Positions 3,298 to 27,374 of a stretch of 64,000 bases of DNA are shown here, one piece after another. How positions within the stretch are numbered: the stretch's first letter is position 1; each line of letters begins with the position of its first letter. The stretch is from Betaproteobacteria bacterium (GTDB lineage: Bacteria; Pseudomonadota; Gammaproteobacteria; Burkholderiales; SG8-39), in the NCBI GenBank assembly GCA_016234705.1, contig JACRAS010000197.1:1-64000 (forward strand), written 5' to 3'. The notes below the pieces were generated by a model that searched no databases, was not told the DNA's origin, and was given only the letters and a program-made list of their open reading frames with translations. The translations under genes were made by a program, and so were the position numbers.

Positions 3298-6045
3298 ATG
3301 CAGGAAACGAAATCCATTTGTTGCTACTGCGGAGTCGGTTGCGGCGTAATCATAGCCAGCGACGACGCTCGCATTGCCGGCGTGCGCGGGGATCCTGAGC
3401 ATCCGGCCAATTTCGGGAAGCTATGCACCAAGGGCGCGACACTGCATTTGACGGCGCGCCACGATTCACGCGCCTTGTATCCGGAGCAGCGCGAGGCGCG
3501 CGGTCTCGCGCGCAGCCGCGTCACCTGGGACGAGGCGCTCGATCACATCGCGGTGAAGTTTGCCGGCCTGATCCGCGCCCATGGTCCCGACAGCGTTGCC
3601 TTCTACATCTCCGGCCAGCTCCTTACCGAGGACTATTACGTCTTCAACAAGCTGGCGAAGGGGCTCATCGGCAGCAACAACATCGACACCAATTCGCGCT
3701 TGTGCATGTCCTCCGCGGTGTCCGGCCACAAAGCGAGCCTGGGTGCGGATGCGCCGCCCGCTTGCTACGAGGACATCGATCATGCCGGCTGCATGTTCAT
3801 CGCCGGCTCCAACACCGCCTATGCGCATCCGGTGCTGTTCCGCCGTATCGAAGAGGCGAAAGCCAGGAATCCGGCGCTCAAACTCATCGTCGTCGACCCG
3901 CGCCGCACCGACACGGCGGCCATGGCCGATCTGCATCTGCCCATCCTGCCCGGCAGCGATATCGCGCTCTGCAACGCCATGCTGCACGTACTGCTGTGGG
4001 AAGGCCTGGTGGACCATGGATACATCCATGCCCACACAACGGGTTTCGACGCACTCAAGGAGATCGCGCGCGAGTACACGCCCGCGGCCGCGGCCGAGCT
4101 GTGCGGCGTCCCGGCCGAGGATATCGTGCGCGCGGCCAAATGGTTCGGCGCCTGCGCGCCGACGCTGTCGCTTTACTGCCAGGGTTTGAACCAATCGGTA
4201 CACGGCACGCACAACAATGCCGCGCTAATCAACTTGCATCTTGCCACCGGCCAGATCGGCAAGCCCGGCGCAGGGCCGTTTTCGCTTACCGGACAAGCCA
4301 ATGCCATGGGTGGGCGCGAGGTCGGCGGCATGGCAACCCTGCTGTCCGCGCACCGCGATCTCGCCAACCCGGCGCACCGCGCCGAAGTAGCGCGGCTGTG
4401 GGGCGTGGACTGGCTGCCCGCCGAGCCGGGCAAGACCGCAGTCGAGCTGTTCCATGCGATCGAGGAAGGCAAGATCAAGGCGGTATGGATCGCCTGCGCC
4501 AACCCGGCGCAATCGATGCCTGATCAGAACCTGGTGCGCAAGGCGCTCGCCACGGCCGAACTGGTGGTGTTGCAGGAGGCCTATCGCAACACCGATACCG
4601 CGGCCTACGCGGACATCCTGCTGCCTGCGTCCAGTTGGGGGGAAAAGGAAGGCACGCTCACCAATTCGGAGCGGCGCATCAGCCGGGTGCGCGCCGCGGT
4701 GGCGCCTCCAGGGGAGGCGCGCGCCGACTGGGAAATCGTCAGCGACTTCGCGCGCCGGCTCGGCGCCAAGCTCGGCGACGCGCGCGCCGAAAGACTGTTC
4801 GCTTACCGCACAACCGAGGAGGTGTTCAACGAGCATCGCGAAAGCACGCGTGGCCGCGACCTCGACATCACCGGGCTCAGCTATGCCAGGCTCGAAGCCG
4901 ACGGCCCGCAGCAATGGCCGCTTGCGGAAGGCGCCGCAGGCGGCGCGGCGCGGCTGTATACGGACGGCCGTTTCGCCACCGCCGATGGCCGCGCGCGCTT
5001 CGCCGGCGTGCGCCATCAGGACACCGCGGAGCGCACCGACGCGCGCTATCCGCTGCATCTGACCACCGGCCGCTTGCGCGACCACTGGCACGGCATGAGC
5101 CGCACCGGCACGGTGGCGCGCTTGTTCAATCACAGCCCCGAACCCTACGCCACGATGCACCGCGACGACATGGCGCGCCGCGGCCTCGAGGACGGCGACC
5201 TGGTATGTCTGAAAAGCCGGCGCGGCAAGCTCACCTTGCGCGTGCAGGGCTCGGACGAATTGCGCCCGGCGCAGGTGTTCGTGCCCATGCACTGGGGCAG
5301 CCAGTTCATGCACGGCGCGGGCGTGAATGCGCTCACCGCGGGCGACTTCGACCCGCATTCGAAACAGCCGGAGTTGAAGCACGCCGCGGTGCAGGCGGAA
5401 AAAGTGGAATTGCCGCACACCCTGGTGGCGATGCGCCGCTTTGCCGTCGATGCGATGCCCTCGGCGCCGCAATTGGCCGAGCGCTTGCAGCCGTTGTTGG
5501 CGAGATTCGATTACGCCAGCGTGAACCTCGTCGGCCGCGAGCATGCGGTGCTTGTGTTCCGCGCCTACGGCGCCAAGCCGCCGGATGCCGCGCCGCTGCG
5601 CGAACTCGATCGCCTGCTCGCGCTGGATGCGCCCGAGTCCACCATGCATTACCGTGATCTGCGCCGCGGCGTGTTCAAATCGGCGCGCGTAGAGGGCGAC
5701 GCCGTCATTGCGGTGCGCCTGGTGGGCGAGACGGCGGGCGAAGAGTGGCTGAAGAACATGATGCTGCAAGGGGCTTCCGCCGAAGCGATGCGCCCCTGGG
5801 TGCTGGCGCCGGTATCGACGCCGCCGCGCGGCACGCTCAATCGCGGTCGCATCGTATGCAACTGCCTGGATGTCTCCGAAAACGAAATCCGGCGCGAACT
5901 TGCGTCGGGTGTTACGTTGGCTGGATTGCAGGCCAAGCTCAAGTGCGGCACCGAGTGCGGCTCGTGCGTGCCGGAGCTGAAGAGAATGCGCGCGGCGCAG
6001 GAGCGCATCGAAGGTGCTGTGGCAGTGCATGCTGCACCGCAATAG
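3298..6045 (+). CDS. nasA: Assimilatory nitrate reductase, catalytic molybdopterin subunit
   Basis: A 915-residue cytoplasmic molybdenum enzyme that reduces nitrate to nitrite. The N-terminus CCYCGVGCG with Cys43 is the [4Fe-4S] cluster site typical of bis-MGD enzymes. Then come the molybdopterin oxidoreductase domain and the dinucleotide-binding domain ('GRLRDHWHGMSRTGTV' region). The last ~55 residues are a BFD-like [2Fe-2S] domain with cysteines in CNCLD and CGTECGSC, as in NasA proteins of proteobacteria that lack a separate ferredoxin subunit. No signal peptide is seen, which supports the assimilatory type over periplasmic Nap. The start is the ATG directly after the sigma-54 promoter leader. 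Transport and nitrite reductase genes follow. Confidence 0.93.
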   Translation: MQETKSICCYCGVGCGVIIASDDARIAGVRGDPEHPANFGKLCTKGATLHLTARHDSRALYPEQREARGLARSRVTWDEALDHIAVKFAGLIRAHGPDSVAFYISGQLLTEDYYVFNKLAKGLIGSNNIDTNSRLCMSSAVSGHKASLGADAPPACYEDIDHAGCMFIAGSNTAYAHPVLFRRIEEAKARNPALKLIVVDPRRTDTAAMADLHLPILPGSDIALCNAMLHVLLWEGLVDHGYIHAHTTGFDALKEIAREYTPAAAAELCGVPAEDIVRAAKWFGACAPTLSLYCQGLNQSVHGTHNNAALINLHLATGQIGKPGAGPFSLTGQANAMGGREVGGMATLLSAHRDLANPAHRAEVARLWGVDWLPAEPGKTAVELFHAIEEGKIKAVWIACANPAQSMPDQNLVRKALATAELVVLQEAYRNTDTAAYADILLPASSWGEKEGTLTNSERRISRVRAAVAPPGEARADWEIVSDFARRLGAKLGDARAERLFAYRTTEEVFNEHRESTRGRDLDITGLSYARLEADGPQQWPLAEGAAGGAARLYTDGRFATADGRARFAGVRHQDTAERTDARYPLHLTTGRLRDHWHGMSRTGTVARLFNHSPEPYATMHRDDMARRGLEDGDLVCLKSRRGKLTLRVQGSDELRPAQVFVPMHWGSQFMHGAGVNALTAGDFDPHSKQPELKHAAVQAEKVELPHTLVAMRRFAVDAMPSAPQLAERLQPLLARFDYASVNLVGREHAVLVFRAYGAKPPDAAPLRELDRLLALDAPESTMHYRDLRRGVFKSARVEGDAVIAVRLVGETAGEEWLKNMMLQGASAEAMRPWVLAPVSTPPRGTLNRGRIVCNCLDVSENEIRRELASGVTLAGLQAKLKCGTECGSCVPELKRMRAAQERIEGAVAVHAAPQ

Positions 6046-12704: not shown

Positions 12705-13910
12705 TTAGTTGCTATTGACTTCTGCTTCTGGCCAAAGATTCGGGAACAGAAACCGTAGCGAATCAAGCGGCACTCCAAAAGCGACTGGCGAGCGCGTTGA
12801 CTCCTCCGTCAACACACCAAAATCAAGCAGGCTTGCCAGAACTCTCCGGCCGGTACGCTCACCTAGGCCCGTCATTGCGACGAACCTTGAGCGCTCGATC
12901 GGACCAGCCATAGCAACGTAGTGCAATGCTTCCAGTGCGTCGATCTTGACGACGGATTTTTCGCTACCAATTGCCCAAGGTTGCTGTTGCAGATGAAGAA
13001 GCAGCGATTTAAGTCGATCTCGCAGCGAAGCAAAATCAAGTCTTTCGCGCATGAAACCGACCTGGTCCAAACATGCTCCGAGAAAATAGCTGGCGAAAGC
13101 GACTAGCTCTTCTTGTGAAAGTGGACCGCGCCCGTCAAAATCGTTTCGGCGCGACAAGTCTGCGTTATTGAGACGGGCGTAGTACTGCTCTTGCGTGCGT
13201 GCGAGACCACGCATGGGTGACCACAAACCCTGCGTGAGTCCCATAGCGTGCAACACAAGATGCGTATGAAGACGCGCGGCGCGCCCATTGCCATCGATGA
13301 AGGGGTGGATCCAGGCTAGTCGATGATGCGAGCAGGCCGCCCCAATCAGAAGCGCTTCCGTGCCGGCCAGTTTGTGATAGCGTTCCGCCCATGCCTCCAT
13401 CAGCCCCTCAATGTCCTCCGGCGGCGGAGCGACATGCAGTCCAGCCTTCACACCTTTTTTCCGGTATTCGCCTGGAATGATGGTTTCGCCCTCGTCGGCA
13501 ACTCGGTCCGCCTCGGGTAACTTGCTATAGAGCAAGCCATGAATCTTACAAACTAACAGTGGCGAGAAGGCATTTCCCGGAGCAGTGTCTGCGAGATTCA
13601 GTTCTAGCTGTTGCTCAACTTCCATATGCGCGATAGCTACGCGCTGCTTTCTAGCCAGCGCCGCATCCACGTTGAAATCCTTTTTAATGGCGCGCTCGAT
13701 TTCTGCGGGCTTGGTATGTTGCCCCTCGATCTTGTTTGTGTAATACGAGTTCATCTCTCGCAACTTTGGGCTAAGCGCGCGAGCCATCGATGCCCCTGCC
13801 TGACCTTGAAGGGTGTGGCACTCGGCGATGAGTTGTGCGGCCAGCTCATGTAATGGTCCTAGGACCCGTTCCTCAGGGAACAGCGGCTGAAATTGGCTAA
13901 TATCGGTCAT
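12705..13910 (-). CDS. Fic-family protein (AMP-transferase type)
   Basis: A 401-residue Fic protein. The Fic core HPFIDGNGRAARL contains the catalytic His and the phosphate-binding GNGR. Upstream, TNKIEG fits the inhibitory helix motif [S/T]xxxE[G/N] placed N-terminal to the core, as in class II Fic enzymes with built-in inhibition. The C-terminal ~100 residues look like a winged-helix region (GLGERTGRRVLASLLDFGVL). The usual activity is AMP transfer to a target protein; the target is unknown. It is divergent from the helicase operon across a 209-bp AT-rich region. It may be a passenger of the island or a regulator of it. Confidence 0.85.
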   Translation of the reverse strand: MTDISQFQPLFPEERVLGPLHELAAQLIAECHTLQGQAGASMARALSPKLREMNSYYTNKIEGQHTKPAEIERAIKKDFNVDAALARKQRVAIAHMEVEQQLELNLADTAPGNAFSPLLVCKIHGLLYSKLPEADRVADEGETIIPGEYRKKGVKAGLHVAPPPEDIEGLMEAWAERYHKLAGTEALLIGAACSHHRLAWIHPFIDGNGRAARLHTHLVLHAMGLTQGLWSPMRGLARTQEQYYARLNNADLSRRNDFDGRGPLSQEELVAFASYFLGACLDQVGFMRERLDFASLRDRLKSLLLHLQQQPWAIGSEKSVVKIDALEALHYVAMAGPIERSRFVAMTGLGERTGRRVLASLLDFGVLTEESTRSPVAFGVPLDSLRFLFPNLWPEAEVNSN

Positions 13911-13914
13911 TTAT

Positions 13915-14119
13915 GGGCAGTTCTTTGGACACAATAATGGACAGTTTAATCGCACTGCAGGTATTTGACAAACAGATACTATATGTGTCTCTATGAGCAT
14001 TATAGGACAGTTCTAAGGACACTTTAATTGCATCTAAGTCCATAGATATGCGCTTACCCACTTGAAATAACGTATAACATATGCTATATTGCACAAAATA
14101 TTATCATGCAACATTATAA
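13915..14119. promoter_or_regulatory. AT-rich divergent control region with repeated GGACA motifs
   Basis: The gap between fic and the helicase gene is much richer in A+T than its surroundings. CAGTTCTTTGGACAC (13918-13932) and CAGTTCTAAGGACAC (14008-14022) are direct repeats. Each is accompanied by a GGACA[G/C]TTTAAT element (13939-13950 and 14018-14029). Such spaced repeats could be operators for the HTH domain at the helicase N-terminus. Promoter boxes cannot be fixed. Confidence 0.5.
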
Positions 14120-17100
14120 ATGAAGCCACAAGAAATTAAGACCATCCGCAAGTCTCTTGGTCTTACCCAACAACGCTTAGCGACCTTACTTGGGGTCTCC
14201 TTCGCGACGCTAAATCGTTGGGAAAACGGCCAAGTGCGCCCTTCCCGATTGGCGCTAGAAAAGCTGCAAAGCCTCCAAACCGCAGGGGGCATTTTGCCGC
14301 CGAGCACGTCTGAGCATTTGGGCGCTTTGGCTGCCTCTGTTGATGCTAAGCTCAATTTCCTCGGCGATCCCAACCAAATTCGGGTTCTAGTTGAGGGCGA
14401 GCGCCTGAGTTACGGCCACTTGTTCAATCCCGCGTTCGCGGCCGAGATCAGCCAGATCGATCCGCTGCCCCATCAGCGCATCGCTGTCTACCAGCACATG
14501 TTGCCTCAACCTCGCTTGCGCTTCCTACTAGCGGATGATGCCGGCGCGGGCAAAACAATCATGACCGGTCTCTACGTGCGCGAAAGCCTTACGCGGCGGA
14601 CGATTCGTCGCGTACTCATCGTCTCGCCTGCCGGTCTGATCGGAAACTGGGCGCGAGAACTGCGTACGCTGTTTCAATTGCGGTTCAAAATCGTGACCAG
14701 CGCCGACGCCCGTAGAGGCAATCCGTTCACAGGACTGGAGGGTGATCTGGTTATCGTCAGTGTGGATTCCCTGCGAAGTGCAACGCTTTTCAAGGATCTT
14801 GGCGATCCTTCCGTGTTGCCTTATGACTTGGTTGTCTTCGACGAGGCCCACAAACTGTCTGCCAATCGGGACAATGATGGCACCTTCCGTCCCACTGATC
14901 GCTACCGCCTTGCCGAGTCGCTCGCAGGGGTCCGCGACATCCCGGACGACTGGCGCCTGCCTTGGAGCGCACATCATATGTTGCTGCTGACTGCCACGCC
15001 TCATATGGGCAAGGAGTACCCGTATTATTGTCTCTGGCGCTTGCTCGAACCTGAAGTGTTCAGTACCGAAACCTCGTTCAAGCTCTTTCCCGCGGACGCG
15101 CGCCACCGGTACTTCATCCGCCGCGTCAAGGAAGAGATGGTCGATCTGCGCGGCCGCGCGCTGTTTCCCAGGCGCATCTGCGATACGCATAGTTATGACC
15201 TCACCACGGGCGCCATCAGCGAACAGACCCTTTACGACGAAACCACCAAGTACATCCGGTATTACTACAACCAGGCACGTTTGCTGAACCGATCCGCGGC
15301 GCGCTTCGCGATGATGGTGTTCCAGCGCCGGCTTGCAAGCAGTACCTGGGCATTGTTGTGCTCCTTCCGGCGACGATTCGAACGACTCGAAACGTTGATC
15401 GACGACATCCAGACGGGGCGCATCCCGGAAGAACAATTGCGCGAGCAGCAAAGGAAGCTCGATCGGCAGACTCACGACTCCCTTGCCGAGAAATCCGCAG
15501 ACGAGGAGACCACCGAAGGCGGTATCGAAGAGCACGAAAAAGACGAGGCCGAAGCGCTCGGCGCATTCGTCGCAATTTCAGTGGCTGAGCTCATTGCCGA
15601 GCGCGAGAAAGTGCGCGAGCTGATTCGTCTCGCCGAGCGCGTGTACGAGCGCGGGCAGGAATCGAAATTCGAGAAAATGCGCGAGCTGCTGCGCGAGCCG
15701 CAGTTCGAGAACCAGAAAGTCATCATCTACACCGAGCACAAGGACACGCTTGAGTTTCTGACTAGACGCCTCGATGCCATGGGCTTTACCGGGCAAGTGG
15801 CGTTCATCCACGGCGGTTTGGACTTCCGGCAGCGCGACGCCCAGGTCGAACGTTTCCGGCGTCCTCATGGTGCTGCCTCAGGCGAGGAGGCCGGTGCCCG
15901 CTTCTTCGTCGGTACCGATGCGGCGGCCGAGGGCATCAACTTGCAGTTTTGTTGGGTACTCATCAACTACGACGTGCCCTGGAATCCAGCTCGGTTGGAG
16001 CAGCGCATGGGCCGCGTACATCGATACGGACAGAAGAAGGATCGTGTTGCCATTCTCAACCTCGTCGCAGGCAAGACCCGCGAAGGCCGGGTTGTCAAGA
16101 CGCTCCTCGACAAGCTCGAAGAAATTCGTACTGCCCTTGGCTCGGACAAGGTGTTCGACGTAATCGGACGGATCTTCGAAGGCGTTTCGCTCAGCGACTA
16201 TTTGCAGAAGGCCATCCTCTCCGACGATGCGGCTGATCGTGAGGCCATCGGTCTGGCGGGTCAACTCACAGTGGAGCAGGTTCGCGCGATCGCGGCGCGC
16301 GAGGAAGCCATCTACGGCAAGGGTGGCGAAGTGACACAGGCACTGCCCAAGCTGCAGGAAGCGCTGCACATCGAAGAGTTACGCAGGCTCCTGCCGGGCT
16401 ACGTACGGCGCTACCTTGAACACGCCGCTCCTGTAATTGGGGTGGATCTCATTGGCGACTTGGGCGCAACCTTCTTTCTGCGCGCTCGAACCCGCGGCGC
16501 AATCGACACCGTGGTGCCGCTGCTGGAAGGTTACCCCGACTCGGCACGTAACCGCTTGACCGTCTATCGCCCCGACGACAAGCACGACGCCGTCTTTCTC
16601 CATCCCGGAGAGCCTGTATTCGAGCGGCTGTCCGCGCTTGCTATCGAGCGTTGCAAGGCTGCGGGACAGCAAGGCGCGATCTTTATCGATCCGTCTGCGA
16701 TCAAGCCCTACCTGTATCACGTCGCGCGGGTCAACGTCGTGCGCGGCATCGACCAGGGGTTTCCGTCTCTGCATCAGGAGGAAGTGCTGGAGCAGCGCTT
16801 GGTCGGAGTGCGGCAATTCGCCGACAACAGCTTGGACGAAGCCCCCGTTGAGCACCTGCTGCTGCTCAAGCCTGGCGCCAAGGTTGACCCTGCAGCGGTG
16901 CCTTTTCTCGCGCAGGGGGCCACGTACCGTGCCGCCGCGGATCAGTTCGTACGCGAAATCCTACTGGCGCGATTGACGGAAATCCAGCACCTGACTGCAC
17001 GAGAACGTCTCACCCATACCGAAGAGTACTTGCGGCGTGCATATGACTATCAGGAGTCCGAGCTTGCGTCCGCCAGAAAGCGCTTTACCGAGAAGGCGCG

Positions 17101-17695
17101 CGAAGGCGACAAGCGTGCGGGCGCCGAACTCGAACGCATCAAGACCCAGCAGCGCAGTCTTTCCGAGCGGCGTGACCTTGCCGTAGCGCAGGTGCGCCGC
17201 GAGGCGGAGCTTATCGCTGCGGGCAAGGTGGAAATTATTGCCACGGCATTAGTTCAACCGTCCAACGATATCGAGGACGTCAAGGCGCGCGATGCAGAAG
17301 TCGAGCGAATTGCAATGGAGATTGCCATTGCGCATGAGGCTAGTTTAGGAGCCGATGTGCGTGATGTCTCGACGCCGAATAAGGCTCGCGTCGCCGGGCT
17401 GACCGATTACCCCGGATTCGATGTGCTTTCGAATCGCAGCGCGCAGGACGAGCGCGCGATCGAGGTCAAGGGGCGAGTTGGGACCGGTGACGTGGAGCTA
17501 ACCGAGAACGAGTGGGCGAAGGCGATCAATCTCCGTGAACGGTATTGGCTATATGTCGTGTTCGACTGCGGCACGCCCCAGCCCAGGCTTTTTCGCATCG
17601 CAGACCCATTCGGAAAGTTGCTCGCAAAATCGAAAGCGACGATGATCATCAATGCGCGTGAACTAATGGACGCTGCGCTAAGGGAGGAACGATGA
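14120..17695 (+). CDS. SNF2-type helicase with N-terminal XRE HTH and C-terminal DUF3883-like domain (DrmD-like)
   Basis: 1191 residues. Residues 1-55 are an XRE-type helix-turn-helix (KSLGLTQQRLATLLGVSFAT, RWENGQ). The helicase follows: motif I DDAGAGKT (139-146), motif II DEAH (241-244), motif III LTATPH, then the C-terminal RecA lobe with VIIYTEHKDTL, FFVGTDAAAEGINLQF and the motif VI arginine region RMGRVHRYGQ. A coiled-coil charged stretch near 950-1010 precedes a C-terminal DUF3883/NOV-like domain (AIEVKGR...ELTENEW). The closest named family I know is the SNF2 helicase DrmD of class 1 DISARM, but no drmA, drmB or drmC is nearby. It overlaps the next ORF by 4 bp (ATGA), so the two are translationally coupled. 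Likely a DNA translocase of an anti-phage system. Confidence 0.88.
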   Translation: MKPQEIKTIRKSLGLTQQRLATLLGVSFATLNRWENGQVRPSRLALEKLQSLQTAGGILPPSTSEHLGALAASVDAKLNFLGDPNQIRVLVEGERLSYGHLFNPAFAAEISQIDPLPHQRIAVYQHMLPQPRLRFLLADDAGAGKTIMTGLYVRESLTRRTIRRVLIVSPAGLIGNWARELRTLFQLRFKIVTSADARRGNPFTGLEGDLVIVSVDSLRSATLFKDLGDPSVLPYDLVVFDEAHKLSANRDNDGTFRPTDRYRLAESLAGVRDIPDDWRLPWSAHHMLLLTATPHMGKEYPYYCLWRLLEPEVFSTETSFKLFPADARHRYFIRRVKEEMVDLRGRALFPRRICDTHSYDLTTGAISEQTLYDETTKYIRYYYNQARLLNRSAARFAMMVFQRRLASSTWALLCSFRRRFERLETLIDDIQTGRIPEEQLREQQRKLDRQTHDSLAEKSADEETTEGGIEEHEKDEAEALGAFVAISVAELIAEREKVRELIRLAERVYERGQESKFEKMRELLREPQFENQKVIIYTEHKDTLEFLTRRLDAMGFTGQVAFIHGGLDFRQRDAQVERFRRPHGAASGEEAGARFFVGTDAAAEGINLQFCWVLINYDVPWNPARLEQRMGRVHRYGQKKDRVAILNLVAGKTREGRVVKTLLDKLEEIRTALGSDKVFDVIGRIFEGVSLSDYLQKAILSDDAADREAIGLAGQLTVEQVRAIAAREEAIYGKGGEVTQALPKLQEALHIEELRRLLPGYVRRYLEHAAPVIGVDLIGDLGATFFLRARTRGAIDTVVPLLEGYPDSARNRLTVYRPDDKHDAVFLHPGEPVFERLSALAIERCKAAGQQGAIFIDPSAIKPYLYHVARVNVVRGIDQGFPSLHQEEVLEQRLVGVRQFADNSLDEAPVEHLLLLKPGAKVDPAAVPFLAQGATYRAAADQFVREILLARLTEIQHLTARERLTHTEEYLRRAYDYQESELASARKRFTEKAREGDKRAGAELERIKTQQRSLSERRDLAVAQVRREAELIAAGKVEIIATALVQPSNDIEDVKARDAEVERIAMEIAIAHEASLGADVRDVSTPNKARVAGLTDYPGFDVLSNRSAQDERAIEVKGRVGTGDVELTENEWAKAINLRERYWLYVVFDCGTPQPRLFRIADPFGKLLAKSKATMIINARELMDAALREER

Positions 17696-19194
17696 CGACG
17701 CAACCCGATATTTTCACTGATCTGCTCGCCCCCGAACTCGCTGACGACCTGCGCCGGCTCAATCCGCATTGGGCTGGATTGCCCGGCCCCGAGATTCCCC
17801 GCTTTCACCGCCACATCTTTCCACGGACATATCACAGTCTGCAAACGGGACTTACTCCGGCGACCGTACTGCGGGGAACGCGCCGTGTCGGCAAGACCAT
17901 TCTTCTGCGGCAGATTATCGAGAAAATGCTCTCGGAGGGAGTTGAGGCACATCGCATCCTTTACGTCCCGTTCGACGAAATCGGCAGCCTGCGCAAGCTC
18001 AGCGACCCGATCCTGACCATCGCGCGCTGGTACGAGTCGAGGGTTGTGAAGCACACGTTCAACCAATCCGCGCGCTCGACCGGCCCCGCCTATTTGCTAT
18101 TCGACGAGGTACAAAATCTCGACGCGTGGGCCCCGCAGATCAAGCACCTGGTGGACAACAACACCGTGCGCGTGTTGCTCACGGGAAGCTCCTCGCTGCG
18201 CATCGAAGCCGGCAGGGACAGCCTTGCGGGGAGAATCACCACTATTGATCTTGGGCCGCTATTGTTGCGCGAGATCGCCGAGCTCGCCCTGAATGCTCGC
18301 GCGCAAGCGCATTGGGTGGATAACGGCGGCGAGCGTCTAAGTGAACGTGAATTCTGGGTAGATGGCGCGGCGAAAGCCCGCGACGAAGCGGATCTTCGGC
18401 TGCGCGCATTTGCGGCCTTCTCGGCGCGAGGCGGATATCCAATCGCCCATGAACGCAGTGACGCGGCGTGGCAGGGAATTGCGGCCTATCTCAACGAAAC
18501 CATCGTCAAGCGAGCGATCCAGCACGATTTGCGCATGGGACCGCGCGGCGCCAAGCGCGATGAGAAACTGCTCGAAGAAGTGTTTCGGCTCTGCTGCCGC
18601 TATGCCGGCCAGACGGCAGGTCAGAGCGCTTTTGTCCCGGAGATTCGCCAGGCTCTCGCCGGCAACATCGGTTGGAGCCGGATTTTGACCTACATGAAAT
18701 TTCTCGACGGAACGCTGCTCGTCCGGCTCATTCCGGCGATGGAACTGCGGCTGAAGAAGCGCAAGGCGCCGGCGAAGATTTGCCTTAGCGATCACAGCTT
18801 GCGCGCAAGCTGGCTGCAGGAGATCGTGCCGCTGGATGCGCAAGGGCTGAACGCCAATCCTCATCTTACCGATCTTGCCGGACACCTTGCCGAGAGCGTG
18901 CTTGGCTACTTCCTCGCGTCCATTCCGAACGTTGAACTCGCGCATTTCCCCGCGCGAGGAGCGGAGCCCGAGGTGGACTTCGTACTCACGCTCGGAACCA
19001 GACGTATCCCGATCGAGGTCAAGTATCGCAGGCGTATCGATCCTCACGACGACACGCGCGGTTTGCGCGCTTTCATCGAAAAGGCGGTCTACAACGCCCC
19101 GTTCGGATTGTTGGTGACGCTCGAGGACGGGGTGCAGGTACCGGACCCGAGGATTATCCCCATTTCGCTGTCGGCGCTGCTTTGGATGAGATAA
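17692..19194 (+). CDS. AAA-type ATPase with DUF4143-like C-terminal domain
   Basis: A 500-residue P-loop ATPase. Walker A is GTRRVGKT (62-69), Walker B is YLLFDEVQNL, and the sensor region LLTGSSSL follows. The C-terminal part ends in a nuclease-like core: EVDFVLTLGTRRIPIEVKYR, the E...D-E-K spacing typical of DUF4143/PD-(D/E)XK-like folds. Its start overlaps the helicase stop, so it belongs to the same operon. Single proteins of this kind are widespread and often unlinked to defence, but coupling here suggests a function with the helicase. Nuclease activity is inferred, not shown. Confidence 0.8.
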   Translation: MTTQPDIFTDLLAPELADDLRRLNPHWAGLPGPEIPRFHRHIFPRTYHSLQTGLTPATVLRGTRRVGKTILLRQIIEKMLSEGVEAHRILYVPFDEIGSLRKLSDPILTIARWYESRVVKHTFNQSARSTGPAYLLFDEVQNLDAWAPQIKHLVDNNTVRVLLTGSSSLRIEAGRDSLAGRITTIDLGPLLLREIAELALNARAQAHWVDNGGERLSEREFWVDGAAKARDEADLRLRAFAAFSARGGYPIAHERSDAAWQGIAAYLNETIVKRAIQHDLRMGPRGAKRDEKLLEEVFRLCCRYAGQTAGQSAFVPEIRQALAGNIGWSRILTYMKFLDGTLLVRLIPAMELRLKKRKAPAKICLSDHSLRASWLQEIVPLDAQGLNANPHLTDLAGHLAESVLGYFLASIPNVELAHFPARGAEPEVDFVLTLGTRRIPIEVKYRRRIDPHDDTRGLRAFIEKAVYNAPFGLLVTLEDGVQVPDPRIIPISLSALLWMR

Positions 19195-19319
19195 GCGCAT
19201 GAACGATATGGGCTCCATTGACTCGATGGCAAACTTGTCGCGCGCACGCGGACCGGTTTTGTCGTAAGCGCAACTGATATCCTCCGTGCGTGTGAGGCTT
19301 AGCTACAGGAGCGAAGGCT

Positions 19320-20138
19320 ATGGAAATCGAAATCTTTGACGTCGAGCATGGTGCATGTTCCCTGATCACCGGTGATAACGGTTCAAGGATACTGATTGAT
19401 TGTGGACACAACTCCACTACAAATTGGCGTCCATCTACCTCTCTCCCGGCTCGTGGCATCAATCGAGTCGCTGCGTTGGTGGTATCGAACTATGACGAGG
19501 ATCACGTCAGCGATTTCCCAAACCTTATGCAGCGGGTCACCGTACCGACTTTGGTTAGGAATCCTTCAGTCCGGCCTTGTGACCTCTATTCCCTGAAGTC
19601 GGAGTCCGGTATGGGGCCTGGGATTGGCACACTTGCGCATATGGCAGGGAACTATTATGTGGCGCCGGCAGCAGGTCCGTTAGACCTGGGTGGAATAAAC
19701 GTGTCGTATTTCTGGAATGTGTACCCGAGCTTCGATGATGAAAACAATCTGAGCTTGGTAACGGTTCTCAAATATCACGACTTCGGGATTATTTTCCCTG
19801 GAGACATGATGAAGGCCGGTTGGACGCAACTACTGACCCGAAGCGATTTCCGGGTGGCGCTTGCCGGAGTTAGCGTGCTTGTCGCATCGCATCACGGACG
19901 TGACTCTGGGTATTTGCCCGAACTATTCAACTATTGTTCGCCCGAACTGATCATCTTTTCCGACAAGTCGATCGAGCACGAGACGCAAAAAACAGCGCAG
20001 GTTTATCGCCAGCACGCTAGAGGGGTTCGGTTCTTCGACGGCGTGACCAGATACGTCTTGAGTACCAGGAACAATGGATACATTCGGATGTGGAAGCAAG
20101 GCGTTGGTCCCGGTTTCGTCTGGATTGGCGCGAAGTAA
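19320..20138 (+). CDS. ComEC/Rec2-like metallo-beta-lactamase-fold hydrolase
   Basis: A 272-residue MBL-fold protein. The N-terminus IEIFDVEHGACSLI and LIDCGHN is typical of the ComEC/Rec2-like group. The metal motif, usually H-x-[HD]-x-DH, reads SNYDEDH (56-62), so the first His is Asn. A second site is ASHHGRDSGY. It follows the ATPase gene after 125 bp and lies 9 bp before the membrane protein gene. Such MBL proteins recur in defence islands, where a nucleic-acid or nucleotide substrate is assumed. The Asn substitution leaves catalytic competence open. Confidence 0.75.
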   Translation: MEIEIFDVEHGACSLITGDNGSRILIDCGHNSTTNWRPSTSLPARGINRVAALVVSNYDEDHVSDFPNLMQRVTVPTLVRNPSVRPCDLYSLKSESGMGPGIGTLAHMAGNYYVAPAAGPLDLGGINVSYFWNVYPSFDDENNLSLVTVLKYHDFGIIFPGDMMKAGWTQLLTRSDFRVALAGVSVLVASHHGRDSGYLPELFNYCSPELIIFSDKSIEHETQKTAQVYRQHARGVRFFDGVTRYVLSTRNNGYIRMWKQGVGPGFVWIGAK

Positions 20139-20147
20139 AGGGACCAT

Positions 20148-20804
20148 ATGAGAAAGTTCGACTTTTATGAGTTTGCCGGAATCCTTGTACCCGGCACACT
20201 ATTCTTGGCGGGGCTTGTATATTTTTGGCCAGGCGTAATTGCATCGGATAGCCTGGACAAGATTTCTATTGGTGGCTTGGGCTTATTTACGCTTTTGGCG
20301 TACGTCTCTGGGCACCTGATACAGGCAATAGGGAACTGGATCGAGAAAGGTTGGTGGCTGGCGTGTGGCGGCATGCCAACGGACTGGATACGTTCAGGAA
20401 AAAGAACGTTACTCGCACCGGCTCAGATGCAGAAGCTGCGTATCGATCTACAACATCAATTGGGGCTTAGCCTTCCAGAAAATGTCAATAAGCTTTCTGC
20501 GGGCGAGTGGGTTGGCGTAGTTCGCCAAGTATATGCCGCGGTGGCAGCCGCGAAACGCGCGGCTCGTGTAGACACCTTTAACGGAAACTATGGTTTGCAC
20601 CGTGGTCTTGTAGCCGCTGCGTTACTGCTCTTGCTTGTCTCGCCGATGTCCGACGTGACGACATTGGCCTCAACGGTGATATTGGTCATTGTCGCTGCAG
20701 TAGGAACATCGAGAATGCACTTATTTGGTAAGCACTATGCTCGTGAGCTATTTGCCCAATTCCTACAACTGCCAGCGGGCAATGCGGCCAAGGAGAAAAA
20801 GTAG
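20148..20804 (+). CDS. Membrane protein of unknown function, island operon
   Basis: 218 residues with hydrophobic segments near 9-28, 41-62 and a pair at about 148-184, separated by a soluble middle of some 80 residues (70-145). I do not recognise a family. It is sandwiched between the MBL protein (9 bp upstream) and the methyltransferase, whose GTG overlaps its stop by one base, so it is co-translated with them. Defence operons often carry membrane subunits, but nothing in the sequence gives its role. Confidence 0.75.
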   Translation: MRKFDFYEFAGILVPGTLFLAGLVYFWPGVIASDSLDKISIGGLGLFTLLAYVSGHLIQAIGNWIEKGWWLACGGMPTDWIRSGKRTLLAPAQMQKLRIDLQHQLGLSLPENVNKLSAGEWVGVVRQVYAAVAAAKRAARVDTFNGNYGLHRGLVAAALLLLLVSPMSDVTTLASTVILVIVAAVGTSRMHLFGKHYARELFAQFLQLPAGNAAKEKK

Positions 20805-23800
20805 TGAAGACTGAGAAGCGTCTAATTGAAGTAGCTTTTCCATTGGAACAGACTTCGCTCGACTCTGTACACGAAAAGAACGTGCGCCACGGACATATCT
20901 CCACACTGCATATCTGGCCCGCACGGCGGCCGCTGGCGGCTTGTCGGGCGGCGTTGATTGCCACGCTTCTGCCCGATCCGGGCGACAAGGCCAAGCGCGA
21001 CGAAATCCTCATGCGTCTGGGTGGAACAGTAAGCAAGAGCCTCAAGAAGAAAAAGCTTCCTTCGGGCAAGGTCGAGGAAATTGAGTCGAGAGAGACGCAG
21101 GGCGGAATCCTGCATTGGGGTCGCGAGTCCGGGCCAGACCTGGATTGGTTTCGAAAGGAGATTCGCAAAGCTTACGGCGGCCGCGCTCCCAAGGTTCTCG
21201 ATCCATTTGCAGGCGGTGGCGCGATTCCATTGGAGGCAATGCGCTTGGGATGCGAGGTGACGGCAGTAGATATTAATCCGGTCGCCTGGTTCATATTGAA
21301 GTGTACATTGGAGTACCCACAGAAACTTGCTGGGCAGATGCGCAAGCTGCCTGAGTTTGTATTGAATGAGCCTGCTTTCATGAAAAGCTACATCAAGAGC
21401 CGGCTACCCGAGTATCTGCGTGCCAAGGGCGTGAAGGAGAGCGACATAAAAAAGACAGTCGCCAAATTCGCGAGGGCGACGCTTGATCCGGCGCAGGCAG
21501 AATTTCTTTCCACTATCACCTCGGACGGTGCCTTTCTCGAAGCCGACCTAGCCTGGCACGTGCGCGCCTGGGGGCACCGGGTGCTGCGCGAGGCTAGGCA
21601 CGAACTCTCACGCTTCTACCCGACCTACGCTGAGTTCTGCACGGTGAAGCCGTACGGTCATGTCGCGCTTGCCCGCTCGGACGAAGACCAGCTGAAGCTC
21701 GTGCCTTTGAACGAGTTCGGAGAACTGCAAACCGAACTCCTCAATACCGGCTTCGATGCGTCATATCTTGGGAATGACGGGAACCCGCGTTGGATCGCCA
21801 AACCGACAGTAGCCTATTTATGGGCGCGTACGGTCGCGTGCAAGGCGTGCCGTGCAATCGTGCCATTGCTCAAGACGCGCTGGTTGTGCAAAAAAGACAA
21901 CAAGCGCGTGTTGCTTACCATGAATCCGAATAGGGACAAGACGGGCGTGGAGTTTGGCATCGAGCATGGCGTTCCGCAGCAAGGTGGCAATCCGGCGCAG
22001 AGACGCGAGAACGACAAGCGAGTGGGCGCGGGCACGATAAGTCGCTCGGGCGTGCAATGTCCTTGCTGCGAGACCATTATGACGATGGGAGACCTCCAGC
22101 TTGAGGCGCGGTTTGGAAAAATACATGAAGTACTCACGGCTGTGCTAGTGGACAGCCCCGAGGGAAAGGAATATCGATTGCCGCAAGCTGCAGAGAACGC
22201 TGCGATCGCTAATGCGGTGCTTCAGGTTTCAGGTGCGATGCAAGCCATGCCCTTCGGTGAACTTGTGGAACCGATCTCACCGAACAGACCGTCACCAAAT
22301 ACTCGCGGGGTTTCTGGCTTAGCGCGATATGGAGTCGCGACATGGCAAGACCTGTTCGCGGCACGCCAACGACTGGCGCTTGCCTCGATTGTCATGGCAA
22401 CTCGGGCATGCACGGAGATGTTGAAAGAGTGCGGTTATGACTCCACCTTACGCGAAGCCATTGTTGCCTACCTCGCGGCCAGCATCAGTCGATTTGCTGA
22501 TCGTTGTAGCGTAATCACGACATGGCAAACAAACGCAGAGCAGATAAATCACACATTTGCTCGTTATGTACTACAACTTCCATGGGACTACGCCGAGTCA
22601 AACCCCTTTGCAGACTCCTCCGGGGGATATTTGCAAGCCATTGAATGGATCGCGCAGGTCGCAGAGCATCTCTTGGAGGCAAGCAAGGGGGCACCGGCCC
22701 CTGCCGTAGTGCATGGTTCGTCAGTCGCGGCTATCGACGGTCGCTTCGATCAAATCGTGACCGACCCCCCCTATTACGATGCGATTCCCTACTCTGACCT
22801 GATGGATTTCTTTCACATATGGCTTAGAAGGGCGCTCTCAGGCCTAAGCGACGGGTTCGACGAAGCGTTCAAGGAACCCCTTGGGCCGAAATGGTCAGAG
22901 ACTCGGAATGATGGTGAGCTCGTCGACCAACCCGGAAGATTCGGAGACGACGGAGACAAGTCCAAGCGCGCATATGAAGACGGAATGCAGATGGTTTTCC
23001 AGCAATGTCATCTTGCCTTGGTTGACGCAGGACGCCTTGTCGTAGTGTTCGCAAATAAGAACCCTCTAGCCTGGGAGGCTCTGGTATCTGCTTTGATTCG
23101 GGCGGGCTTCACGGTGGATTCGTCTTGGCCGATTCAAACCGAGCGCGCTGCAAGACAGAACGCGCTAACGAGTGCGTCGCTTGCTTCATCGATCTGGTTG
23201 GTCTGCCGGAAACGCGAACCTAGCCAGCGCGCTGGTTGGGACACTGCGGTACTAAAGGAGATGGAGGAAATCATCCGCGACCGTTTGCGCGAGTTCTGGG
23301 ACTCTGGCATCCGCGGTCCGGACTTCGTGTGGTCCGCGACTGGGCCCGCACTAGAGGCATACAGCCGGTATCCGGCAGTTAAGAAGGCGACCGAGGCCGG
23401 TGCCTTAATGAGTGTTTCCGAGTTTCTGCGTCACGTCCGCCGTATAGTAGTCGACTTCGTCGTTGGCCGGGTGTTGTCGGGCGGCGAAGCAACGACCGAG
23501 CCCGGATCGGTGTCGCTGGACGACATCACCACCTATTATCTGTTGCATCGCAATGACTTCGGCCTAAAGGATGCGCCGGCTGGCGCGTGCATCCTGTACG
23601 CGGTGTCCTGTGGACTCTCGGAGCGGCTGTTGGCGGACCAGTACGAGATTCTGTCGCGTGGCAAGAGCAAGGATGCTGATGACGACGAAGACGAAGGCGC
23701 TACGGATTCGGATGTTGATGAAAGCGAAAGTAGTGCCAGTGGCGGTCATTTCAAGCTAAGGCCCTGGAATCAGCGAAAACACCGTAGTCTCGGCGCGGAG

Positions 23801-24067
23801 TCCAGCAATGGCAAGGCGGTCCCGCTTATCGATCGGGTTCACAAGCTTATGCATCTTTGGAAAACAGGTGACGAAAACAAGGTCAACGACTATCTCGACA
23901 AGCAGGGCCTACGCCAGAGCGCGATATTTCTGCAACTGCTACAAGCGTTAATCGAAAAAAGCCGTGCTGAAGGCCAAAGTGAGGAATGCTCGATTCTGGA
24001 AATGCTCTCCAACCATTTACGCAAGATAGGTGCGACAGCGCAGAGTGCATTGTCGCTCGACGCATGA
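20804..24067 (+). CDS. DUF1156-type adenine-specific DNA methyltransferase
   Basis: A 1087-residue protein starting at GTG with AAGGAGAAAAAGTA before it. The N-terminus (SLDSVHEKNVRHGHISTLHIWPARRPLAACRA) is the DUF1156 signature. The SAM-binding motif I is VLDPFAGGGAIPLEA (near 131), followed by AVDINPVAW. The catalytic motif IV is TDPPYYDAIPYSDL (near 653), i.e. N6-adenine or N4-cytosine type. A zinc-ribbon-like segment with CKAC and CPCC lies around 345-425. An acidic low-complexity stretch (DADDDEDEGATDSD) lies near 965. It probably modifies host DNA to mark self in the operon's defence system. The DUF499 gene follows at once. Confidence 0.88.
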   Translation: MKTEKRLIEVAFPLEQTSLDSVHEKNVRHGHISTLHIWPARRPLAACRAALIATLLPDPGDKAKRDEILMRLGGTVSKSLKKKKLPSGKVEEIESRETQGGILHWGRESGPDLDWFRKEIRKAYGGRAPKVLDPFAGGGAIPLEAMRLGCEVTAVDINPVAWFILKCTLEYPQKLAGQMRKLPEFVLNEPAFMKSYIKSRLPEYLRAKGVKESDIKKTVAKFARATLDPAQAEFLSTITSDGAFLEADLAWHVRAWGHRVLREARHELSRFYPTYAEFCTVKPYGHVALARSDEDQLKLVPLNEFGELQTELLNTGFDASYLGNDGNPRWIAKPTVAYLWARTVACKACRAIVPLLKTRWLCKKDNKRVLLTMNPNRDKTGVEFGIEHGVPQQGGNPAQRRENDKRVGAGTISRSGVQCPCCETIMTMGDLQLEARFGKIHEVLTAVLVDSPEGKEYRLPQAAENAAIANAVLQVSGAMQAMPFGELVEPISPNRPSPNTRGVSGLARYGVATWQDLFAARQRLALASIVMATRACTEMLKECGYDSTLREAIVAYLAASISRFADRCSVITTWQTNAEQINHTFARYVLQLPWDYAESNPFADSSGGYLQAIEWIAQVAEHLLEASKGAPAPAVVHGSSVAAIDGRFDQIVTDPPYYDAIPYSDLMDFFHIWLRRALSGLSDGFDEAFKEPLGPKWSETRNDGELVDQPGRFGDDGDKSKRAYEDGMQMVFQQCHLALVDAGRLVVVFANKNPLAWEALVSALIRAGFTVDSSWPIQTERAARQNALTSASLASSIWLVCRKREPSQRAGWDTAVLKEMEEIIRDRLREFWDSGIRGPDFVWSATGPALEAYSRYPAVKKATEAGALMSVSEFLRHVRRIVVDFVVGRVLSGGEATTEPGSVSLDDITTYYLLHRNDFGLKDAPAGACILYAVSCGLSERLLADQYEILSRGKSKDADDDEDEGATDSDVDESESSASGGHFKLRPWNQRKHRSLGAESSNGKAVPLIDRVHKLMHLWKTGDENKVNDYLDKQGLRQSAIFLQLLQALIEKSRAEGQSEECSILEMLSNHLRKIGATAQSALSLDA

Positions 24068-24101
24068 ACGTGCGGCAGTAGCCGCTGCAAGGAACAACAA
24101 T

Positions 24102-27100
24102 ATGGCAAAGACAAAACCCTGGCATCAGGTCATCGCGCTGCGGTCCGACATCCGCAGCGGCGAGCTGTCGCAAAAGGAGTTCGCGGCGGACTTGTACGAC
24201 GTGATGATGGACAAGAACCGCTCCGTCTACCACGACCCCAAGGAATTCTTCGCGCTCACCTATCCCACCACCCGATTGCGCGAGCTGGCGCGAGATGTAG
24301 TGCTGAGGCTGGCCGGACAATCCGAGAAGGCAGTGCGACAACTTCAGCTTACTTACGGTGGGGGCAAGACCCACGCACTGATCACTCTGGTGCACCTAGT
24401 GTCCGATCCGGCCAAGCTACCCAAGCTGCCGGCGATCGAGGAATTCGTCAATCACATCGGGATCACACCCGCTAAAGCCAGAGTCGCAGCGTTGGTGTTT
24501 GACCGTCTCGACGTCGAAACCGGCATGGACGTGAAAGCGCCCGACGGCAAGGTGCGGCGCTTCAAAATGCCTTGGAGCGCACTTGCCTGGCAGTTGGGCG
24601 GAGAAACGGGACTCAAATTGCTCGGCAGTACCGAAAAGGAACGGGAAACGCCGCCCGCCACTAACGTAATGGAGGATGTGTTGTCGCTGCCTGAGAAGGA
24701 CGGGCTGGGAACCCTGGTCCTTCTGGACGAAGTGCTGATGTGGGCGCACACCATTGTGAGCACCGACAGGGCCTGGATTAAGAAGCTGGAGACGTTTTTT
24801 CAATGTCTGACGCAGGCGGCGGGCCGTGTGAAACGTTGTTCGCTCGTCGCCTCCTTACTCGCGTCCGATCCCTCCAAAAGCGACGATCTCGGAAAGCAAG
24901 TTGAGAAGGCGCTATATGACATATTCCAGCGCGTCGCCGACACCGGCATACAGCCGGTGGAACGCCAGGACGTTGCCGAGGTGCTGCGGCGACGGTTGTT
25001 TACTCCCGAAAGCTATACAGACAAGTCCGGCTGGAAGGCACAGGTGGTAACCGCGCTGAACGGCATCTGCGACCTGGACGATCAGACCAAGCGCCTACGC
25101 TCCCAGGAGGAAACGCGATGCCTGGAGTCTTTTCCATTCCACCCTGACCTGACCGATGTACTGTTCGAGAAATGGACGCAGCTCGAGGGCTTCCAGCGTA
25201 CGCGCGGCGTCCTGCGTACATTCGCCTCGGCGCTGCGCGACGCCGAGAAGTGGGGCGATCCATCGCCGTTGGCCGGTCCCGCTGTATTTCTCCCGGCGCT
25301 GGGGGATGACAATTTGACCGATGCCGCGCGAGAGCTTGCAACTATTGCGCGCACTGAGCAGTACGACGGCAAGAGGCAAGACTGGCAAGCTATTTTGCAG
25401 GGAGAACTGAAAAAGGCGCGTGAGATTCAGCAGGATACGATGCTGAACAAGCGCGAGGTCGAGCAGGCCGTTATTGCGACGTTCATGCACTCTCAACCGA
25501 TCGGTCAGCGCGCCCAGACGCGTGAATTGATGGTGATGCTCGGGCAGGTCGCGCCCGACAAGATCGAACTTGGCAAGGGGCTTTCGCGCTGGGCCGATGT
25601 GTCCTGGTATCTCGACGACACGTTTACGGCAGAAAAAGATGGTGGCCTGCCCAAGATTTGGCGCCTGGGATCGAAGCCCAATCTACGCCAAATGCACTAT
25701 GACGCACGGACCCACATCACCGAAACCGTGATCGAGGAAGTACTGGAAAAGGAAATCGGCGCGACCAAGAAGCTTTCCGAAGGCGCGCGCACCATGGGCG
25801 CCGCCGTACATATGTTGCCCTCGCGACCTGCAGATATCGAGGATGACGGTGAGTTCCACTACGCGGTACTGGGGCCTAAGACCGCATCGGAATCCGGGAA
25901 ACCAAGCGCCGAAGCGAAGCGTTACATTGACGAGACCACGGCCGCGGATCGTCCGCGCGCGTTGAACCGGAATGCCGTGGTGCTGGCGGTGCCGTCGAAG
26001 GATGGCATCGACCTTGCGCGCGAGCGCGTGCGTGACATGCTTGCCTGGGAGCAGGTACGCGAGATGCTGAAAAGCCGTGAAGATGTGGACACGGTACGGC
26101 TCGCGCAACTGGAAATGAACCTCAAGGCGGCGCGTAGCGAGATGGCGTCGCACATTGTCATGGCTTATTGCATCGTAGTAACCGTGAATGATGCTAACGA
26201 CGTGGCGGCATTTCGGCTCAACGTCGATAACGAACCGTTTTTCGTCAAGATTGTTGGCGACAAGCGCGCACGCGTTGAGAGCGCCGCGATCAATGCCGAG
26301 GCGCTCTTGCCGGGCGGTCCATTCAATTTATGGCAAGCGGGCGAGAAGTCACGCTATGTGAAAGATCTGGTCGGTGCGTTTGCGTCGACCGCACGTCTTC
26401 CAAAAATGCTCAACCGCCAGGCGATCCTCGACACCCTGTTGCGCGGCTGCGAGGCCGGCGATTTTGTCCTCCAGGTCACCCGCGCGGACAAGTCGCAGCG
26501 CACGTTCTGGAGAATGCGGCCCGATGATCACGCTCTCGGCGAGCCCAGTCTAGAAGTGGTATTGCCCGAAGCGGCAATGCTGGTGGAAATTGAGCCGGGA
26601 CTGCTTGCGCCAAATGTCTTGCCGGAACTCTGGAAGGCGGAAGCGCTAGTGCTTGGCGTCTTGTGCTCGTACTTCTCCGGCAAGCATTACATCCAGATAG
26701 ACAAAGGCGGATATAAAGAACCGATGTCGATTCCCGGTGCGTCGCGAGAAACCGTCAAACAATCTGTGAGCGCGGTAGTAAAGGCGGGACGGGTATGGCT
26801 GGTCACGCCGGCAATGAGCGTAATGGGTGAAGACGTGCCGGTGAGTCTGCTGACGGACGGCGCCATCTTGTATCCGCCGCCCGCGCCGATTTCCGCAACG
26901 GATTTGCTGCCCGACACCCTCCCGGCCGCATGGGCAAAGTCGCCAACGACTGCGCATTTAATTCATGCCGCACTGTCCACAAAGCTAGGCAAACCACTTC
27001 CGTGGACAACGGTTAAGAGCGCGTTAGACAATGGATTTCGACTTGGGCTTCTTGAACGTACTCTGCTCTCAAAAGAATGGCCAACAGATCTTGGCGGTGC

Positions 27101-27374
27101 ATCCGGCGTGGAGATCGTGCCTAGCAAGCATGAGAAGGGAATAGAAAGCACAAGCTCTACCTATGGCACGAAGGTTGCTGCCGCAGAACTCGAGACTAAC
27201 GAGATACAAGATCTGGCCGACTGTGTTGCCGACATTAAAAAAGCGGCCGCTGGCCAGCAGTTGCGATTCAAAGTATCAGTCGAACTTGGTGACAACGCTA
27301 CGGTGCCACAGGGCGTCCTTGACCAAGTCAATGCGCTGCTTGCAAAGATAAAGGTGGGTTGGAAGCTTGGTTAA
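24102..27374 (+). CDS. DUF499-type large ATPase, anti-phage associated
   Basis: 1090 residues from ATG at 24102 (AAGGA 9 bases upstream). The N-terminus FFALTYPTTRLRELARDVV and the P-loop LTYGGGKTHAL (near 83-92) are typical of DUF499. A Walker B-like segment LVLLDEVLMW is near residue 210. The C-terminal half has no motif I recognise. DUF499 and DUF1156 genes are commonly adjacent in genomic islands and are regarded as anti-phage modules. It is the last gene of the operon, and no DUF3780 or HerA-type partner, often found with this pair, is present. The function of the ATPase is unknown. Confidence 0.88.
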   Translation: MAKTKPWHQVIALRSDIRSGELSQKEFAADLYDVMMDKNRSVYHDPKEFFALTYPTTRLRELARDVVLRLAGQSEKAVRQLQLTYGGGKTHALITLVHLVSDPAKLPKLPAIEEFVNHIGITPAKARVAALVFDRLDVETGMDVKAPDGKVRRFKMPWSALAWQLGGETGLKLLGSTEKERETPPATNVMEDVLSLPEKDGLGTLVLLDEVLMWAHTIVSTDRAWIKKLETFFQCLTQAAGRVKRCSLVASLLASDPSKSDDLGKQVEKALYDIFQRVADTGIQPVERQDVAEVLRRRLFTPESYTDKSGWKAQVVTALNGICDLDDQTKRLRSQEETRCLESFPFHPDLTDVLFEKWTQLEGFQRTRGVLRTFASALRDAEKWGDPSPLAGPAVFLPALGDDNLTDAARELATIARTEQYDGKRQDWQAILQGELKKAREIQQDTMLNKREVEQAVIATFMHSQPIGQRAQTRELMVMLGQVAPDKIELGKGLSRWADVSWYLDDTFTAEKDGGLPKIWRLGSKPNLRQMHYDARTHITETVIEEVLEKEIGATKKLSEGARTMGAAVHMLPSRPADIEDDGEFHYAVLGPKTASESGKPSAEAKRYIDETTAADRPRALNRNAVVLAVPSKDGIDLARERVRDMLAWEQVREMLKSREDVDTVRLAQLEMNLKAARSEMASHIVMAYCIVVTVNDANDVAAFRLNVDNEPFFVKIVGDKRARVESAAINAEALLPGGPFNLWQAGEKSRYVKDLVGAFASTARLPKMLNRQAILDTLLRGCEAGDFVLQVTRADKSQRTFWRMRPDDHALGEPSLEVVLPEAAMLVEIEPGLLAPNVLPELWKAEALVLGVLCSYFSGKHYIQIDKGGYKEPMSIPGASRETVKQSVSAVVKAGRVWLVTPAMSVMGEDVPVSLLTDGAILYPPPAPISATDLLPDTLPAAWAKSPTTAHLIHAALSTKLGKPLPWTTVKSALDNGFRLGLLERTLLSKEWPTDLGGASGVEIVPSKHEKGIESTSSTYGTKVAAAELETNEIQDLADCVADIKKAAAGQQLRFKVSVELGDNATVPQGVLDQVNALLAKIKVGWKLG

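Follow-up and report, generated by a model that had tools for sequence, protein, structure and literature searches.

A putative Hma anti-phage locus of an XRE-type clade with two stacked cassettes between hmaA and hmaB

Does a compact six-gene operon represent a new anti-phage system, or a known system that carries additional parts? The question is raised by a 64,000-nucleotide stretch of DNA from Betaproteobacteria bacterium (GCA_016234705.1, contig JACRAS010000197.1, positions 1–64,000 of the forward strand; hereafter, the window), in which six open reading frames (ORFs) at 14120–27374, all on one strand, encode a helicase, a DUF4143-type ATPase, a protein of metallo-beta-lactamase (MBL) fold, a small membrane protein, a DUF1156 methyltransferase and a DUF499 ATPase. 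A preliminary description of these genes called the helicase DrmD-like and proposed an undescribed, restriction-like six-gene combination. Searches with Pfam and PADLOC profiles recover the six co-directional ORFs with the domains named there; our interpretation of the set is different. With a probability of about 0.8, we read the locus as an Hma anti-phage system of a clade in which the helicase carries an XRE-type helix-turn-helix (HTH) domain, with two separately acquired cassettes stacked at the junction between hmaA and hmaB. The tempting six-gene ‘new system’ thereby becomes a known core to which movable parts are attached, and the swapping of those parts is directly visible within one clade.

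By its profile matches, the core of the locus is the published three-gene Hma system: the models for HmaA, HmaB and HmaC match together, as PADLOC requires for Hma (Table 1), so that an existing model covers three of the six genes, although not all six. Hma was named in 2021 by Payne and colleagues as a helicase, a methylase and an ATPase that are often accompanied by Septu genes (PMC8565338). In a 2026 study, these three genes are classed as Type-1 of the BREX-related systems centred on DUF499, with a helicase that comprises TUDOR, SNF2, an inactive nuclease and a C-terminal active nuclease (PMC12839542); its main text holds nothing relevant on lactamase, membrane, DUF4143 or XRE. The window shares with both accounts a helicase with a C-terminal nuclease-like domain, a DUF1156 methyltransferase and a DUF499 ATPase in one operon. 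Its helicase has the Pfam domains HTH_3, SNF2-rel_dom, Helicase_C and NOV_C, the last (5e-16) at residues 1061–1157, and the C-terminal domain contains the motif GFDVLS..EVKG, of which GFD..EVKG is conserved; this PD-(D/E)XK domain looks putatively active, as in Type-1. The N-terminal TUDOR domain of Type-1 is not present on the window helicase, which has the XRE HTH instead. Features that define Type-2 and Type-3 (a DUF3780 gene, an HKD helicase domain and a PglZ gene) were not matched by any gene of the operon or next to it; the absence of DUF3780 had been stated before. The C terminus of HmaC diverges from that of published Hma, and its model match ends at position 775 of 941.

Table 1 Features of the hma operon in the window
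Feature	Position	Strand	Evidence
Putative promoter of the hma operon, TTGAAA-17-TATATT, TG ahead of the −10 box	14062–14090	+	Consensus scan, 10/12 matches; 1.2 expected by chance
Palindromic operator-like site TATAACATATGCTATA, 16 bp	14073–14088		Overlaps the putative −10 box; 31 nt 5′ of the hmaA start
hmaA: XRE HTH (residues ~5–50), SNF2 helicase, C-terminal NOV_C/PD-(D/E)XK nuclease-like domain	14120–17695	+	PDLC00659 5e-160
Cassette 1: AAA_14/DUF4143 ATPase, family PDC-S01	17692–19194	+	AAA_14 5e-26; DUF4143 1e-10; PDC-S01 9e-32 (residues 38–496)
Cassette 2a: ComEC-like MBL-fold protein, altered motif NxDxDH	19320–20138	+	PDC-M48B 2e-75 (residues 1–257)
Cassette 2b: four-helix membrane protein, weakly Csx27-like	20148–20804	+	PDLC01605 Csx27 1.5e-5 (residues 1–170)
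hmaB: DUF1156 adenine-type DNA methyltransferase, DPPY motif	20804–24067	+	PDLC00661 4e-107; Pfam DUF1156 9e-18
hmaC: DUF499 AAA+ ATPase	24102–27374	+	PDLC00662 9e-80 (model positions 3–775 of 941); Pfam DUF499 4e-17

To place the other three genes, Hma loci of relatives (denoted by L numbers) were fetched and annotated by comparison with the window proteins; ORF starts were set mechanically, so that smaller gap sizes are approximate. An insert of at least 400 nucleotides (nt) separates hmaA from hmaB in 19 of 27 measurable Hma loci, and hmaB from hmaC in 14 of 35. Across Hma, inserts contain Septu PtuA, HEC-01A, HEC-04, HEC-07, TmtA-like genes, AbiL-like genes with RloB, Schlafen with a GajB-like helicase, and Fic. 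Foreign defence genes inside Hma are a recognized habit of the system, termed ‘guilt-by-embedding’ (PMC12255303), and PMC12988326 mentions that Hma-embedded candidates were tested. At the hmaA–hmaB junction, where the window has the DUF4143 ATPase, the MBL and the membrane protein, L068 (from a metagenome-assembled genome) has the MBL and membrane protein without the ATPase, and L177 has a DinD-like stretch (recognized by eye) and a DUF4143 ATPase 82% identical to that of the window, without the MBL–membrane pair. In L182, a distant member of the clade, a Csx27-like membrane protein (5100–6020; 34% identical) occurs alone, without an MBL. A complete-looking two-gene CBASS occupies the junction of L142 (10225–11740; cyclase 2e-107, two-transmembrane effector 7e-42), Ppl-like and Schlafen-like genes that of L050—and of L141, as judged by its Ppl-like gene—and two other genes, the second NADAR-like by eye, those of L179 and L180; L051 has no insert. 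Judged from these gene contents, the junction is a site at which relatives in the window’s own clade exchange cassettes.

The DUF4143 ATPase belongs to PDC-S01, a PADLOC candidate that comprises an ATPase and PD-(D/E)XK and is called the fourth most common defence (candidate) in PMC12988326. We could show no difference from that family, and the position of the window ATPase inside Hma corresponds to the context from which such candidates came. The MBL belongs to PDC-M48B; its profile also matches ComEC (6e-13), and its predicted structure (predicted local distance difference test (pLDDT), 89) has the ComEC MBL domain 9ic4 as its best fold match (E 1e-15). In PDC-M48, the MBL is likewise accompanied by a small membrane protein, M48A, but the partner in the window is Csx27-like: no M48A model matches it, and the genome has no M48A match for the one model searched. 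The Csx27 similarity is a profile match only, weak but near full-length, and recurs in membrane relatives from L068 (7e-5) and L077 (8e-6). The predicted structure of the membrane protein (pLDDT, 81.5) shows four long helices. A fold search of the PDB returned no significant match and so supports no link to Csx28 or KwaA; when solved structures were searched by sequence with the family, the matches were unconvincing. Membrane partners of the MBL belong to several different families: Csx27-like proteins, PDC-M48A and two further groups. The Csx27-like and M48A families may be distantly related over their first two helices (hhalign probability, 44%).

Relatives of the MBL were found at 73 loci when 84,980 species genomes were scanned. 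Hma genes are within reach in three of these (L068, L072 and L075) and E2-E1-JAB genes in about a dozen, several of which have a second MBL, whereas most others have neither; the MBL was not found in any phage record searched. The presence of an MBL gene in E2-E1-JAB operons was noted by Iyer in 2006 (PMC1779556, row 6a). Those operons share with the window the same kind of MBL, often with an adjoining membrane-protein gene, but there its companions are genes for ubiquitin-like conjugation and, in many cases, another MBL, rather than Hma, so that the MBL–membrane pair connects Hma with ubiquitin-like operons. A 388-amino-acid gene beside E2-E1-JAB was considered as a CD-NTase and rejected; it encodes a second MBL-type protein. 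L072 and L075 have a different arrangement, with the membrane protein, a 318-amino-acid protein that is weakly M48B-like and the MBL directly 3′ of hmaC; L075 also has Septu PtuA at its hmaA–hmaB junction, and in L072 a TIR-domain gene adjoins the MBL.

The helicase itself sets the lineage apart. A tree of HmaC separates the window’s clade with 100% support in the Shimodaira–Hasegawa-like approximate likelihood-ratio test (SH-aLRT), with some long branches outside the clade; one clade row, L178, offers no readable hmaA. All of the ten clade members in which hmaA can be read (the window, L068, L050, L051, L053, L141, L142, L179, L180 and L182) have the XRE HTH at the N terminus of HmaA. It takes the place of a different N terminus that is common to other Hma helicases and is taken here, by position, as the published TUDOR domain. 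As far as could be checked, a well-supported Hma clade with a helicase that bears an XRE HTH in the putative TUDOR position is new here.

A second distinction from published Hma is a conserved palindrome 5′ of hmaA, TATAACATATGCTATA, which was noticed when upstream sequences of the clade were compared and was then scanned for. With up to two mismatches allowed, the window contains this site alone (0.02 expected). The fetched loci (2.42 Mb, window excluded) contain seven distinct sites at up to one mismatch, six of which lie just 5′ of an XRE-type hmaA. The palindrome is present in 8 of the 10 clade members—counting the window and L050, which has two mismatches to the stricter pattern—and was found in none of the 12 TUDOR-type loci scanned, although the motif was derived from this same clade, so that the agreement partly reflects shared ancestry and the two counts are not an independent test. 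It ends 27–48 nt 5′ of the likely hmaA start in the window, L068, L050, L142, L179, L180 and L182. Both the palindromic form of the site and the fact that it persists where the upstream regions otherwise differ argue for a function. Controller proteins of restriction–modification systems have an XRE-type HTH and a palindromic site at the operon promoter, and by analogy the likeliest reading of domain and site is autoregulation of the hma operon. Controller proteins are, however, small and separate, whereas the HTH of the window is fused to a helicase/nuclease.

Two other identities for the operon have to be considered. The helicase, earlier labelled DrmD-like, does match DrmD models strongly (1e-96 to 1e-97), which would suit a DISARM variant that carries a DrmD helicase. 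However, the HmaA model fits far better and over nearly the full length (5e-160 versus 1e-96), the score of 329 bits misses the NCBIfam DrmD cut-off of 610 bits, and hmaB and hmaC are present; drmA, drmB and drmC do not occur among the operon and adjacent genes, the only ones searched, as the preliminary description had noted for the DISARM core. On these grounds, we rejected a DISARM variant and give it practically no credence. An integrated six-gene system, with the ATPase, MBL and membrane protein as required subunits, would agree with the single strand, the small gaps and the one likely promoter. Tight spacing does hold between helicase and ATPase (4-nt overlap), MBL and membrane protein (9-nt gap), and membrane protein and methylase (1-nt overlap). 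A gap of 125 nt lies where the two cassettes meet, between the DUF4143 and MBL genes, and the reported overlap of hmaB and hmaC is probably a start-codon artefact: because relatives begin with MAK(T/I)KPWHQ, we moved the hmaC start from GTG 24030 to ATG 24102, around 34 nt past hmaB. Among close relatives (HmaC 63–83% identical), between one and all three of the extra genes are missing, or other genes are present, and the MBL–membrane pair is mostly found without Hma. As an obligatory set, the six genes are already refuted, because the extra genes occur without each other in close Hma relatives; integration in any form is very improbable. The preliminary description had named independence of the helicase pair and the methylase–DUF499 pair as grounds for its refutation. 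The outcome is of this type but divides the genes differently: helicase, methylase and DUF499 belong together, whereas the ATPase and the MBL–membrane pair are independent. That description is therefore partly supported, in its restriction-like role with a self-marking methylase but not in its undescribed combination of all six genes.

Within an Hma locus with added cassettes, the roles of the XRE domain and of the membrane protein could still differ from our reading. An XRE domain that serves target recognition, by binding phage DNA or positioning the helicase, would suit its occupation of the place of TUDOR, which the literature treats as a reader of nucleic acids or modifications; we consider this unlikely given a conserved palindrome precisely ahead of XRE-type hmaA and almost nowhere else in the 2.42 Mb, an arrangement typical of autoregulators. 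Instead of being a passenger, the Csx27-like membrane protein, either by itself or jointly with the MBL, might serve XRE-type Hma as a functional accessory and link DNA recognition to the membrane, much in the way that Csx27 and Csx28 are companions of Cas13b. Its recurrence at the hmaA–hmaB junction of the window, of L068 and, unaccompanied, of L182, the membrane protein and MBL right after hmaC in L072 and L075, and the action of Csx28 as a membrane pore with Cas13b speak for such a role, which we nevertheless regard as possible but doubtful: most clade members do not have the Csx27-like protein, the Csx27 similarity is weak and no fold match was found. Several observations weigh against our own reading of Hma with movable cassettes and a self-regulating helicase. 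The MBL–membrane pair occurs in both the window and L068 (MBL 74% and membrane protein 66% identical, compared with 82–83% for the core); the pair may have accompanied the lineage for a while and might have become functionally tied to Hma. The palindrome abuts the likely hmaA start region in L053 and was not found 5′ of hmaA in L051 and L141, and the promoter match is by itself no better than chance. The motif NxDxDH of the MBL, invariant in 28 aligned relatives, lacks the first metal-binding histidine of HxDxDH, which some ComEC have, so that catalysis is possible but uncertain.

If the locus is Hma with added cassettes, the family assignments suggest how it may act. HmaB would methylate host DNA and so mark it as self, HmaC would assemble a recognition complex on unmethylated DNA as an AAA+ ATPase, and HmaA would translocate on and cut foreign DNA, or abort the infection; the restriction-like anti-phage role proposed earlier, with the methylase marking self, is the published view of the Hma family. 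The layout suggests that the XRE domain of HmaA would bind the palindrome over the promoter and repress the operon, with the level of the helicase/nuclease thereby self-limited. An Hma branch whose regulator is built in and whose 16-bp site is defined would make directly testable how Hma stays safe in its host. The cassettes may be added defence modules expressed from the same promoter: the PDC-S01 ATPase, and a membrane-tethered pair consisting of a ComEC-like MBL nuclease or nucleic-acid-binding protein and its partner. More speculatively, and with a low chance of being right, the MBL and small membrane protein may form a portable membrane-bound effector module for unrelated front ends (Hma, E2-E1-JAB and stand-alone PDC-M48), which in XRE-type Hma would be activated, via the repressor carried on the helicase, once infection titrates HmaA or removes it from the operator.

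The operon is part of a 14.7-kb stretch, from a Fic gene to hmaC, with a third-position G+C content of 0.53–0.72, compared with 0.84–0.87 in the flanking nirB-like and heptosyltransferase genes; the MBL–membrane pair (0.53–0.59) is among the lowest values. In the nearest relative that possesses nirB as well as the heptosyltransferase gene (L173 and L174; G001 contigs C110 and C35), both contigs stop near these island-flanking genes, a possible sign of repeats or of a different insertion there. The Fic gene is SoFic-like (1e-28) and divergent to hmaA (12705–13910, minus strand). A Fic gene also lies between hmaA and hmaB on a Thermus plasmid (L172), so the association of Fic with Hma recurs. 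Between the Fic gene and hmaA, at around 13913–14030, a unit like GGACAGTTCTAAGGACA is repeated in whole or in part and may constitute a second regulatory site.
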